Shown here: positions 54,452 to 64,000 of the stretch, one piece after another
Numbering within the stretch: the first letter of the stretch is position 1
Layout: each line of letters starts with the position of its first letter
From: Chryseobacterium gleum
Lineage (GTDB): Bacteria > Bacteroidota > Bacteroidia > Flavobacteriales_D > Crocinitomicaceae
Length of the DNA: 64,000 bases
Direction: 5' to 3'
NCBI GenBank assembly: GCA_945888625.1
Contig: CAMDAH010000002.1
Coordinates: 157,419 to 221,418, forward strand
Notes under the pieces: model-generated
The model's database searches: none
The model's input: the letters and a program-made list of their open reading frames with translations, nothing else
What the model was told of the DNA's origin: nothing
Translations under genes and position numbers: made by a program

Positions 54452-54808
54452 TCAGGGTATTATATTAAATTCAATGATGCTAAGTATACCCCCCGCAGCA
54501 CTACCAGCGCTACCAAAGGTAACCGATGTGCCAGCCGAAAGCCAAAAAGGAAAATTGGCTACTTGGGTGGAGGTTAATTGCTGACGAAGATTATAATACA
54601 CCCCATTATATAACATGTAAGTATAGGTATTACCAGCGGAGTTCAACATGCAATTTTCTAATTTCCAAACTTTACCCGCGGGAACTGTAATTGGTGTTGT
54701 GTTGCTCGAGGCAAATGCATAAGTAATTACTTGATTAAACTGTAGGTTGCCTTGGGCGAAAGAAGCCTGAATGCTAACCAAAAAAAGGAAAATTAAAATA
54801 ACTCTCAT
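54452..54808 (-). CDS. Small exported array protein m6 (last of minus arm)
   Basis: This 118-residue protein has a signal peptide (residues 1-19) followed by QGNLQFNQV at the mature N terminus. The middle (NCMLNSAGNTYTYMLYNGVYYNLRQQ) pairs best with plus-arm member p4; both read VPAGKVWKLEN or IPAGKVWKLEN, with Leu instead of Ile/Val. PFWLSAGTSV replaces the usual PIWLPAGT. It has a single Cys at about residue 54. Nothing indicates lipidation or a T9SS signal. A weak TTATTAA/TTAATAA hairpin lies just downstream, so read-through into the PKD gene is possible. Confidence 0.85.
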   Translation of the reverse strand: MRVILIFLFLVSIQASFAQGNLQFNQVITYAFASSNTTPITVPAGKVWKLENCMLNSAGNTYTYMLYNGVYYNLRQQLTSTQVANFPFWLSAGTSVTFGSAGSAAGGILSIIEFNIIP

Positions 54809-55212
54809 GGTATAATATTAAATTCAATGACACTTATTTTGTTTAAGCATATTCCTCCTGATAGCGTTGTCCCAGCAGGAAGCCAGATTGGAAGTATAGT
54901 GTATGAGTGAACATAAGATCCGCTGGAATAGCCCAAAGGGCTTGTGCCTTGGCCTACTTTTGTGGGGGTACCAGCCACAACAATTGCTGCAGAATTATTG
55001 TCATTTGTATTACAATTGCCATAATTTCCTGTTTGATAGGTTGTCGAGCCTTCTGCTATGTTGTAAATTACACTTTCAATCTTCCACACCTTACCAGCAG
55101 GTACTGTTTCTAGCGCGGTAACTAATTTTACTTGGTTGAATTGTAAATTACCTTGGGTAAAAGCACCCGTGTATAGAAAAATGGTAATGATGAAAATGTA
55201 AAGTCTTTTCAT
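54805..55212 (-). CDS. Small exported array protein m5
   Basis: This 135-residue protein has the signal peptide KRLYIFIITIFLYTGAFTQ, identical at DNA level to that of m3. It belongs to the VKLV-x(3-5)-ETVPAGKVWKIES subgroup with m1, p2 and p8. The variable part is long and Asn/Ser/Gly-rich (NYGNCNTNDNNSAAIVVAG) and the protein has two Cys. Ends SVIEFNIIP. Overlaps both neighbours by 4 nt. Confidence 0.85.
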   Translation of the reverse strand: MKRLYIFIITIFLYTGAFTQGNLQFNQVKLVTALETVPAGKVWKIESVIYNIAEGSTTYQTGNYGNCNTNDNNSAAIVVAGTPTKVGQGTSPLGYSSGSYVHSYTILPIWLPAGTTLSGGICLNKISVIEFNIIP

Positions 55213-55232
55213 GGTATAATGTTAAATTCAAT
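55160..55232 (-). repeat. 73-bp direct repeat, copy at the m4/m5 junction
   Basis: This segment is identical base for base to 55911-55983. It covers the last codons of m4 (the IEFNIIP end), the ATGA overlap and the signal-peptide codons of m5, while the flanking variable regions differ. It is a natural crossover site inside the array. Confidence 0.85.
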
Positions 55233-55574
55233 AATACTAAACCATCGATACGCTCCTTGAGTTGAAGAGGAATGTCCTAGGATTGTTCCCTCTGGAAGCC
55301 ATATTGGAGAAGAAGCAGAATGGCGATAATATCCCCCTGAAGATACGACAGGTCCAGTGTGCTCAAATGCAGCTTGATTATTTAAATAGACATAAGTACT
55401 TCCGGCATATCCTCCCATTGCTTCTATTTTCCAAACTTTACCGACTGGAACAGTCCATTGTGCTAAATTACTTGTTGTTGCGGTTAAAAATAACACTTGG
55501 TTGAACTGTAAGTTTCCTTGGGCGAAAGCAAGATGATTAAGTAGTATAAAAAGAGCAATGTAAAGTGTCCTCAT
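55209..55574 (-). CDS. Small exported array protein m4
   Basis: This 121-residue protein has a signal peptide ending LAFAQ. It is the counterpart of plus-arm p6: both carry QWTVP[AV]GKVWKIEA, a G-x-Y-x-G/Y-G-S-T element, GYYRHSASSPIWLPEGTILG or GYYRNADATPIWLPSGSILG, and RWFSI[IL]EFN. The match across the variable core shows that subfamilies arose before the two arms formed. No Cys. ATGA overlaps on both sides. Confidence 0.85.
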   Translation of the reverse strand: MRTLYIALFILLNHLAFAQGNLQFNQVLFLTATTSNLAQWTVPVGKVWKIEAMGGYAGSTYVYLNNQAAFEHTGPVVSSGGYYRHSASSPIWLPEGTILGHSSSTQGAYRWFSIIEFNIIP

Positions 55575-55963
55575 GGAATAATGTTAAATTCAATTACCGA
55601 GGCAAAATCGGAAGAACAGGTAGTTCGAATTTGGTCACCCGATTTCAACCAAATTGGAAATTTATTGTGATTCATCATTTGTAAACTATTAGTACTTCCC
55701 CAAGCGACATCTCCTACAAAATAATAAAACCCATTATTTATTATTAATGGGCGATGTATTGTACTTGAGGTACATGAGGATGAAGAACTATTGCTATTTA
55801 TTAATTCACTCTCCAAATATGATTCAACCTTCCAAACTTTACCGGCAGGAACAGTTTGTAAAACTTCTACAACTCGAATGACCTGATTAAACTGCAAGTT
55901 ACCTTGAGCGAAAGCACCCGTGTATAGAAAAATGGTAATGATGAAAATGTAAAGTCTTTTCAT
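55571..55963 (-). CDS. Small exported array protein m3
   Basis: This 130-residue protein has the same KRLYIFIITIFLYTGAF signal peptide as m5. It pairs with plus-arm p7: LQTVPAGKVWKVESY against AQTVPANRVWKIESY, then RPLIINNGFYYFVGD against HPFLINTKPYYLINGS, and PIWLKSGDQIRTTC against PIWLKTGDIVQTTC. A Ser run (NSNSSSSSCTSS) fills the variable loop. Lys replaces Pro in the usual WLPAG. Confidence 0.85.
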   Translation of the reverse strand: MKRLYIFIITIFLYTGAFAQGNLQFNQVIRVVEVLQTVPAGKVWKVESYLESELINSNSSSSSCTSSTIHRPLIINNGFYYFVGDVAWGSTNSLQMMNHNKFPIWLKSGDQIRTTCSSDFASVIEFNIIP

Positions 55964-62505: not shown

Positions 62506-62870
62506 AAAACCTTCTGTTTTTACTTTTTCTTTTCTTCAGTTTGAGCTTTACAGCTCAAGGAAACTTGCAATTTAATCAGGTAGTTTACTTGTCTGCAAAT
62601 ACCGACAACACCACCCAGTGGACTGTCCCTGCGGGAAAGGTGTGGAAAATTGAGGCTGTAGGAGTTTACGGCAGTACTTTGACGGTATATTTTAATGGAG
62701 TAACGTCATTTATTTATGCAGGAGCTTATTCCAACTCAAGTCCATCTGGCTATTACCGAAATGCGGATGCTACACCTATTTGGCTGCCGAGTGGCAGTAT
62801 CCTAGGTCAATCTTGTGGATGTGGAGGCAATCGTTGGTTTAGTATTTTAGAATTTAATGTTGTGCCATGA
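62502..62870 (+). CDS. Small exported array protein p6
   Basis: This 122-residue protein pairs with m4 across the variable core (QWTVPAGKVWKIEAVGVYG; GYYRNADATPIWLPSGSILGQ). It adds a Cys pair (SCGCGGN) that m4 lacks. Ends SILEFNVVP, with Leu for Ile as in p7. Confidence 0.85.
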   Translation: MKNLLFLLFLFFSLSFTAQGNLQFNQVVYLSANTDNTTQWTVPAGKVWKIEAVGVYGSTLTVYFNGVTSFIYAGAYSNSSPSGYYRNADATPIWLPSGSILGQSCGCGGNRWFSILEFNVVP

Positions 62871-63259
62871 AAAATCTCCTGTTTTCACTTTTTCTATTCT
62901 TCAGTTGGAACTTTACAGCTCAAGGAAATCTCCAATTTAATCAGGTGCTGCGTATAAACAATATAGCTCAAACTGTTCCAGCTAACAGAGTGTGGAAAAT
63001 AGAATCGTATATGCAATCTCAAACGTCATTGAGCGATGGAGTTGAAATATCATCTTGTAATTTAATCGATCGTCATCACCCATTTCTTATCAACACAAAA
63101 CCTTATTATCTAATTAATGGCTCCCCAGGACATGGTAGTTCAGGGACTTATATGGCTGTTGGAAATCAATTGCCCATATGGTTGAAGACTGGTGATATTG
63201 TCCAAACGACTTGTGTCGATAATTTCTTAAGTATTTTAGAATTTAATATTATTCCATGA
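62867..63259 (+). CDS. Small exported array protein p7
   Basis: This 130-residue protein pairs with m3 (IESYMQSQTSLSDG, PIWLKTGDIVQTTC). The core motif is altered to VPANRVWKIES, the only Asn-Arg in place of Gly-Lys. Ends SILEFNIIP. Three Cys. Confidence 0.85.
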   Translation: MKNLLFSLFLFFSWNFTAQGNLQFNQVLRINNIAQTVPANRVWKIESYMQSQTSLSDGVEISSCNLIDRHHPFLINTKPYYLINGSPGHGSSGTYMAVGNQLPIWLKTGDIVQTTCVDNFLSILEFNIIP

Positions 63260-63639
63260 AAACACTTTCTTTCCTTTTTTTTACATTCCTTTTGTTAAAC
63301 AAAATTTATTCACAAGGAAATTTGCAGTTTAATCAGGTTAAATTGATTAGTGTCATAGAAACGGTGCCAGCGGGTAAAGTTTGGAAGGTAACAAACTTTC
63401 TTCCAACACCTAATGGTAATTATCAGGCTATAAGCCAACCCGGAGTTGCTGAATATTTAATTAATATAAACGGTGTAGCTATGAATTTAGGACGCAGGGC
63501 TTATTATAATAATAATTATAACCACCAACTGGCTGAAGTTCGACATACAGGCGACATTTGGTTGGCTGCAGGCACGACACTTGCTGCTTTTCAAAATATT
63601 GCTCACTTATCAGTCATCGAATTTAATATTATTCCATGA
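63256..63639 (+). CDS. Small exported array protein p8
   Basis: This 127-residue protein has VKLISVIETVPAGKVWKVTN, placing it with m1, m5 and p2. The middle is Asn/Tyr-rich (YYNNNYNHQ) and it has no Cys. DIWLAAGTTLAAFQN, ending SVIEFNIIP. Confidence 0.85.
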   Translation: MKTLSFLFFTFLLLNKIYSQGNLQFNQVKLISVIETVPAGKVWKVTNFLPTPNGNYQAISQPGVAEYLININGVAMNLGRRAYYNNNYNHQLAEVRHTGDIWLAAGTTLAAFQNIAHLSVIEFNIIP

Positions 63640-64000
63640 AAAATCTCCTTTTATTTAGCTGCTTACTATTCAATTTCAGCTTTAAAGCGCAAGGCAACCT
63701 GCAGTTTAACCAGGTATTGCATTTAGAAATCACTTGTTGTACTGCTTCAGCCTTTTCAGTTCCAGTTGGTAAAGTGTGGAAAATAGAAGGTTCGATGGCC
63801 TATTCGAATAATTATCCTACAAGAATAACGGCTATTAATGGCAATCCAATGGAGGCATACCTTACAGGATATACCTACCTTAACTATGGTATTTTACCAA
63901 TAACTTTACCATATTGGTTACCAGCGAATACGCAAGTTTCTTTTAATACAGGTAACACAATTGGCTACAAAGGCTACGTTTCTATTATTGAATTTAATGT
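63636..64000 (+). CDS. Small exported array protein p9, cut by the window edge
   Basis: 121 codons are visible; the window ends inside the final motif (SIIEFNV), so only a few residues and the stop are missing. Signal peptide KNLLLFSCLLFNFSFKAQ, then QGNLQFNQV and VPVGKVWKIEG. An adjacent Cys pair (ITCCTAS) and PYWLPANTQV are its variations. The array may continue beyond the window. Confidence 0.85.
   Translation, partial: MKNLLLFSCLLFNFSFKAQGNLQFNQVLHLEITCCTASAFSVPVGKVWKIEGSMAYSNNYPTRITAINGNPMEAYLTGYTYLNYGILPITLPYWLPANTQVSFNTGNTIGYKGYVSIIEFN

Follow-up and report, generated by a model that had tools for sequence, protein, structure and literature searches.

Candidate interchangeable tips for a collagen-like surface fibre: an array of fifteen small paralogues in a Crocinitomicaceae genome

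Why should a bacterium keep fifteen versions of one small protein, predicted to be exported, around two genes for collagen-like fibres? The question is raised by the end of a 64,000-nucleotide stretch of DNA (the window; contig CAMDAH010000002.1 of assembly GCA_945888625.1, filed as Chryseobacterium gleum and placed by GTDB in the Crocinitomicaceae). An earlier note had proposed that the small proteins perhaps cap or decorate a triple-helical fibre. The answer that we favour, with moderate confidence, is that they are interchangeable tips (heads) that dock in trans on a conserved tail (NTLIYTADGF) of the neighbouring collagen-like fibre. The small proteins would be exported through their predicted signal peptides and displayed at the cell surface, a head docking in trans on the C-terminal tail of the fibre protein; the joint would be made by that tail on one side and the invariant head ends on the other. 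The fibre is presumably trimeric, judging by the S74 domain and the collagen stems. A single surface fibre could thereby show one or another of several stably kept tip surfaces, whose variable loops may serve adhesion or glycan binding.

The array and its fibre genes

The array comprises 15 small paralogues of 116-140 residues, six on the minus strand (54452-56762) and nine on the plus strand (60590-63998). Our recount bears out the earlier description of an exported-type family with 6 minus-strand and 9 plus-strand members; the signal peptides were judged by eye. The motif QGNLQFNQV is present in 15/15 and EFN lies close to the C-terminus in 15/15, while the VPAGKVWKIE-like core is near-invariant and its W and K are invariant. 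As had also been noted, two Gly-X-Y proteins are flanked by the array; both are on the minus strand and one carries Peptidase_S74. The minus arm lies downstream of both fibre genes in the same direction, and the plus arm is divergent from them. The features are as follows.

56785..58281, minus: tailed fibre with N-terminal MAT_N-like domain, 63 Gly-X-Y triplets and C-terminal tail SANTLIYTADGF (Pfam Collagen; NF053851 44.4 bits)
56788..56823, minus: codons of the conserved fibre tail SANTLIYTADGF, the proposed docking peptide
58298..60430, minus: second fibre with MAT_N-like domain, Gly-X-Y stem and Peptidase_S74, no tail
60431..60589: 159-bp divergent intergenic region separating the two arms
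56343..56762, minus: head subunit subtype Y, minus arm 1, 139 residues, directly downstream of the tailed fibre gene
55960..56346, minus: subtype S, minus arm 2, 128 residues
55571..55963, minus: subtype G, minus arm 3, 130 residues
55209..55574, minus: subtype Q, minus arm 4, 121 residues
54805..55212, minus: subtype D, minus arm 5, 135 residues
54452..54808, minus: subtype E, minus arm 6, 118 residues
60590..61012, plus: subtype B, plus arm 1, 140 residues
61009..61389, plus: subtype W, plus arm 2
61386..61778, plus: subtype V, plus arm 3
61775..62125, plus: subtype A, plus arm 4
62122..62505, plus: subtype J, plus arm 5
62502..62870, plus: subtype P, plus arm 6, mature part folded with AlphaFold2
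62867..63259, plus: subtype C, plus arm 7
63256..63639, plus: subtype M, plus arm 8
63636..63998, plus: subtype R, plus arm 9, incomplete at the contig end

All 13 adjacent paralogue pairs share a 4-nucleotide overlap (ATGA as printed in the plus arm). The first plus-arm gene had been listed from 60530; the start consistent with the family is 60590. The end of the window is the end of contig C2 (the genome comprises 2.4 Mb in 42 contigs), and the 15th paralogue loses 3 residues there. Contig C34 overlaps this end and carries the end of the 15th paralogue, where the standard array stops, so that the standard members number 15. A whole-genome scan for DNA encoding QGNLQFNQV returned exactly the 15 array genes, and a profile scan of the same genome added the C34 fragment and a divergent copy on C23. 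The latter is a solitary head with QGNLQFSQV (G000:C23:25109-25543; L104:9089-9547), with no fibre gene in the surrounding 11.6 kb.

The S74 domain of 58298..60430 scores 43.2 bits with PF13884 (cut-off 22), and its SDLKIK fits the SDxxxK motif. With NF053851, the model for the N-terminal domain of the mosaic adhesive trimer (MAT) fibres of Bdellovibrio, the two window fibres score 44.4 and 42.1 bits (E 1.4e-11 and 7.7e-11), below the cut-off of 60; the model matches nothing in 14 control genomes. The E-values point to a distant kinship with MAT fibres. The genome holds four MAT_N-like fibres by this model, none above the cut-off. The two outside the window lie on C13 (ending in VRAIRSF) and C20 (broken by the contig end), and no head gene was found within the 9 kb examined around either. 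Across the scanned fibres the scores were 30-55 bits where listed, none reaching 60, and one of 10 (L072) had no match. Because the curated cut-off is not reached, the fibres are not classed as MAT members; nor are the heads placed in any named family.

Pairing of the fibre tail with head genes

The fibre gene directly upstream of the heads ends in a conserved C-terminal tail, (N)TLIYTxDGF, with NTLIYTADGF as the window form. We collected 86 MAT_N-like or collagen genes from the window and from other loci (L030-L103 and L104-L120) and kept 70, after genes cut at the 3' end and duplicates had been dropped. The tail was present in 39/39 fibres with a head gene at most 150 bp downstream and in 0/31 other fibres. 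Thirty-eight of these tails were recognized by pattern and that of L085 (NTLMYTINGF) by eye; L079 (CYTCDGF) was scored as tailless. Fisher's test gives 4.5e-19 for this pairing, a value that is overstated since the rows are related. When the tail is mapped on a tree of 62 MAT_N domains, 15 changes are required, and supported branches force at least 10 of these; at three loci (L036, L056 and L059) the tailed fibre and the untailed one are sisters. The G and F of the tail were found in 35/35, all four glycine codons are used and the tail codons vary synonymously. This synonymous variation around an invariant GF indicates that the tail is held at the protein level.

Tail-encoding DNA was also sought regardless of its neighbours, a match being counted if it ended an open reading frame of at least 50 residues. 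Among 120 genomes of the window's taxonomic family there were 18 matches, 8 of which end such a frame, and a head gene came next in 8/8; these eight were already among the loci used to recognize the tail and are a test only for tails without heads. Among 395 genomes of the class, scanned with a slightly stricter pattern, 9 of 16 matches end a frame and a head gene is next in 9/9. Pooled, the frame-ending matches of the two scans come from 15 distinct genomes (2 shared), with 15/15 tails followed by a head gene and 7 cases new. Six of the seven are complete stems of 149-192 residues, all from one taxonomic family (f30), which lack collagen and any significant match to MAT_N (two reach E 0.5); the seventh (G328) is incomplete at its start. 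Two of the six match the stems that precede the large arrays of L076 and L088. The presence of the tail on a second kind of stem indicates that it follows the heads and not the stem.

These counts bear on a reading in which the tail serves the fibre as a signal for secretion or for the outer membrane, and the operon also encodes secreted lectin-like or decoy proteins that act independently of it. The terminal residue of the tail is Phe, with which outer-membrane beta-barrel proteins often end, and small type A type IX sorting proteins adjoin 16/44 tailed runs of head genes (by a home-made profile; Pfam agrees for the two that were scanned). The tail is missing, on the other hand, from 31/31 other MAT_N-like or collagen fibres of the same loci, and it accompanies head genes on the second kind of stem as well. 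We regard this reading as very improbable. The second stem also invites a broader form of docking in trans, a general plug-and-socket toolkit in which a ten-residue C-terminal plug on at least two kinds of stem takes any head of one jelly-roll family; with up to about twenty heads in a run, a single shaft could then bear combinatorial tips, mixed trimers included. This extension is tentative, and we lean slightly against it.

Natural fusions speak to the proposed joint from another side. L120, from the same genus, is a single protein that combines what is elsewhere split: a MAT_N-like domain, a Gly-X-Y run and two head domains. When the C-terminal part of this protein was used to search a database, nine relatives came up, with the MAT_N-like domain and two C-terminal head domains in 9/9 and, as in L120, a Gly-X-Y run (8/9). 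Among the nine, the tail is found in 0/9 and a QGNLQ or LQFNQV-like strand in 0/9. Both motifs are gone in the covalent fusions, as expected if they are the halves of a joint that is needed only in trans. Weaker fusion candidates occur in L059 and L097 (E 4e-5 and 2e-4). The earlier proposal that the invariant ends form a joint gains indirectly from the absence of the N-terminal motif in 9/9 of these cis-fused relatives.

The fusions also help to weigh whether the small proteins act in the periplasm, as chaperones or assembly factors that would bind the tail during folding and export and be absent from the final fibre. The small proteins are co-encoded with the fibre, predicted to be exported and linked to its C-terminal tail, all of which would suit a chaperone, and phage T4 gp38 is described in the relevant part of PMC12892980 as a fibre chaperone released after assembly. 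Fifteen conserved subtypes beside one tailed fibre, and fusion to the fibre end, fit displayed heads better, and we hold the chaperone reading to be quite improbable.

Several observations weigh against heads docked in trans. Folding of a single chain of tail, signal peptide and head with AlphaFold2 gave no docking: the tail was coil or helix and unpaired (predicted local distance difference test, pLDDT, about 62-73). This construct is a poor test, as the signal peptide sits between tail and head; since the fold left the tail unpaired, contact between tail and head is deduced from the genetics. The idea of fibre capping gains from linkage, from the fibre tail and from the fusions. The loci are related, so the pairing counts are not independent. 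The nine divergent head genes of the window have no tailed fibre in their own operon, and the C23 copy likewise has no tailed gene nearby. Of the 87 head-gene runs counted in the window and L030-L103, the upstream sequence reaches 1 kb or more for 62; a script placed 37 of these behind a tailed gene, 10 divergent from a fibre and 15 in neither arrangement. Eleven of the 62 are heads without a tailed gene nearby. Six of these eleven share a genome, by contig names, with a fibre-linked run (L067, L074, L075, L080, L081 and L092); for the other five no fibre-linked run was found in the same genome among the loci examined. The remaining four of the 15 are L090, with a variant tail (TLIFTTTGF), and later runs in larger arrays (L069 twice and L094). 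Finally, 11 of the 120 family genomes hold the head family (E 1e-4) and only 8 have a tail by the pattern; in G100 the tail is present and was missed by the pattern (L116), while for G090 and G041 the head matches are all weak or broken and no tail was seen.

Stable subtypes, predicted fold and neighbourhood

The 15 paralogues encode QGNLQFNQV with 15 distinct 27-mers and show synonymous change at every codon; the motif is therefore held at the protein level and not by recent copying, and recent gene conversion as its source is ruled out. The codons of the C-terminal EFN show only two codon strings among the 15 genes, just before the start of the next gene, and a DNA-level role may be conceived there. 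The middles had been called hypervariable. Between the paralogues of the window they have a median identity of 35% (105 pairs), and within a subtype across loci 72% (583 pairs), whereas the ends are at 94% in both comparisons. The window and L030-L103 hold 365 family frames; for this subtyping the 227 with the motif and sufficient length were clustered, giving 37 clusters of two or more. In close relatives the subtypes recur in a similar order as well: the minus arm reads Y S G Q D E in the window and Y S Q F D E in the equivalent arm of L030, and the plus arm reads B W V A J P C M R against B W V A J a G C M plus one unlabelled member in L031, some subtypes (G) having switched arm. The median ratio of nonsynonymous to synonymous substitution (dN/dS) was 0.09, with values below 1 in 172/172 usable pairs, these being the within-cluster pairs (of 583) from different loci with a synonymous divergence of 0.15-2. 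The variability is accordingly old and stable divergence, and antigenic variation through hypervariable middles is ruled out by subtype conservation and dN/dS. From these comparisons, the family members look like old, specialized subunits under purifying selection.

Beyond the window, 3716 of 5209 candidate proteins matched a profile of the 15 paralogues at E 0.01 or better. The best-ranked 120 of the 3716 all have LQFNQ and an EFN-x-x-P end, as expected of top ranks. Matches in named genomes come from metagenome-assembled genomes, mostly titled as Bacteroidota groups (Flavobacteriales, Crocinitomicaceae); titles of Streptomyces or Rhizobium are probably mislabelled. In a Pfam scan of 137 members at E up to 1, none of the 25 families listed (of 41) matches more than 2 members, the best being DUF4813 (E 3.5e-4) and GH131_N (8.4e-4) with two members each. 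No consistent family emerged from a Pfam scan of 3 members, and an NCBIfam scan of one member gave no match. Matches to PHROGs were weak and scattered (at most 2/137 members per family, best E 2e-4, in the 25 of 28 families listed). A phage origin is unsupported: 49 viral stretches fit a pattern and none was confirmed as a relative. Had the small proteins been an unrelated periplasmic family without a link to collagen-like genes, the outcome would have been otherwise; we found no consistent family match and a strong association with fibres.

Two members, P0013 and P0019, have near-identical mature heads and different signal peptides, which suggests recombination at the boundary between signal and mature part. 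Four apparently circularly permuted heads with a glycine-rich part were also seen (L087:8942-9919, L090:3822-4808, L103:837-1781 and L114:9512-10459); PF21722 (Gly_rich_2) was found in the L087 protein, the one of the four for which it is shown, and by analogy the glycine-rich part is reminiscent of phage gp38 tips.

The predicted fold of the head family is a nucleoplasmin-like jelly roll. Nucleoplasmins are eukaryotic histone chaperones; the similarity to their jelly rolls is about 8% identity, and the fold alone is in common. Structural searches point to the common jelly roll only. Foldseek found nothing at E 0.001 or better against the PDB and one match at that level against viral models, and a sequence profile search of the PDB gave 2 matches at E up to 10, neither of them a nucleoplasmin. 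The first and last strands hold polar residues that are conserved among 137 members (Q5 in 131, N7 in 123, E99 in 137 and N101 in 128), and most other columns vary, as an interface would need.

The models bear on a further reading, a heteropolymeric pilus-like stack begun on the fibre tail, in the manner of F-ENA on the collagen-like F-Anchor of Bacillus, with the paralogues lining the shaft. In the first AlphaFold2 model the first strand begins at mature residue 3 (model and cleavage site both being predictions), which would leave no free N-terminal hook. Ena was not the top structural match, nor was it among the 50 listed for the second model. Runs hold 1 to 19 heads; that many fibres have a single head next to them says nothing for or against a stack made of one subunit. 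We consider such a stack unlikely.

The surroundings of the array give some indication of where its products act. In the place that small type A type IX sorting proteins occupy elsewhere, the window has two other proteins, and L030 and L031 have proteins of equal length at the same places as both.

50865..54386, minus: PKD-repeat protein with a CHU_C sorting domain (type B type IX), the next gene downstream of the minus arm
47718..50582, minus: second PKD-repeat/CHU_C protein

Because proteins with sorting domains adjoin it, the locus looks like a cell-surface locus, as far as gene content goes. A DUF932 gene also adjoins it (46629-47498). After the 15th paralogue come a divergent 104-residue member without QGNLQFNQV (L105:7951-8265, minus) and a 121-residue protein (L105:7512-7877, minus), and L030, L031 and L032 show the same order at the outer end of their divergent arms. 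Proteins of 102-106 residues close the divergent arm in L030, L031, L032, L033, L037, L038 and L056; a terminator or base subunit is possible. Larger arrays, with 18-23 family frames per locus, follow short tailed stems of another kind in L069, L094, L076 and L088, and those of L069, L076 and L088 are then followed by a protein of about 1030 residues with a type IX sorting domain. L097:3388-11750 holds seven consecutive MAT_N-like fibres of at least 154 residues, some frames overlapping, whose tips differ (one has Fib_succ_major and another Lcl_C below its cut-off); among the seven is a tailed fibre that heads follow.

If heads indeed dock in trans, a large unannotated family (the 3716 proteins above) would gain a class of function and its invariant ends a reason, and a short tag would be at hand for finding shafts and head genes in genomes. 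A shaft with many separately encoded, lineage-stable heads would be a design unlike same-chain mosaic fibres, and would lend itself naturally to the presentation of chosen domains on fibres.

Comparison with known systems

In the open-licence literature searched for QGNLQFNQV, for Crocinitomicaceae collagen-like proteins, for collagen-like Bacteroidota fibres and for MAT with Bacteroidota, no description of the layout turned up, as judged by titles and the starts of abstracts; the motif itself gave nothing, and what came up for Crocinitomicaceae concerned ice-binding proteins and for MAT, Bdellovibrio. Type V pilins of Bacteroidales have a lipobox cysteine after the signal peptide. In the window, Q-G starts the conserved part in 15/15 and no cysteine occurs in the preceding four residues. 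Phage gp38 of the T2/S16 type is a poly-glycine sandwich, with one tip gene per fibre; the longest glycine run in the 15 mature window proteins is 3. In the part of PMC12892980 on gp37-gp38 of this type, a trimeric fibre bears a separate receptor-binding tip with constant and hypervariable parts, much as proposed here. The system differs from ours in that here there are many tip genes and a predicted jelly roll; the likeness is one of function, and no relationship is claimed.

The pilus-like stack takes its model from ENA/F-ENA of Bacillus with F-Anchor and F-BclA, where, in the portion of PMC11952670 drawn on here, subunits of about 10 kDa are combined with a collagen-like surface protein and F-Anchor carries a subunit-like C-terminal domain. 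There, one subunit makes a long fibre through an N-terminal hook, whereas here there are many subtypes and a C-terminal fibre tail. For the MAT fibres of Bdellovibrio, the sections of PMC10769870 consulted describe an N-terminal domain after the signal peptide, to which that of the fibres here is related, exchangeable C-terminal tips, and an S74 class with the SDxxxK motif beside a non-S74 class. The same sections place the MAT N-terminal domain most probably near the cell surface, where it positions variable C-terminal domains. The tips of MAT fibres lie within the fibre chain, whereas here the heads appear to be supplied by genes of their own, of which the window has 15 and runs elsewhere have up to 19. 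By analogy, the arrangement is most likely similar in mode to T2-type gp37-gp38 and to MAT fibres, except that the tips are spread over many genes.

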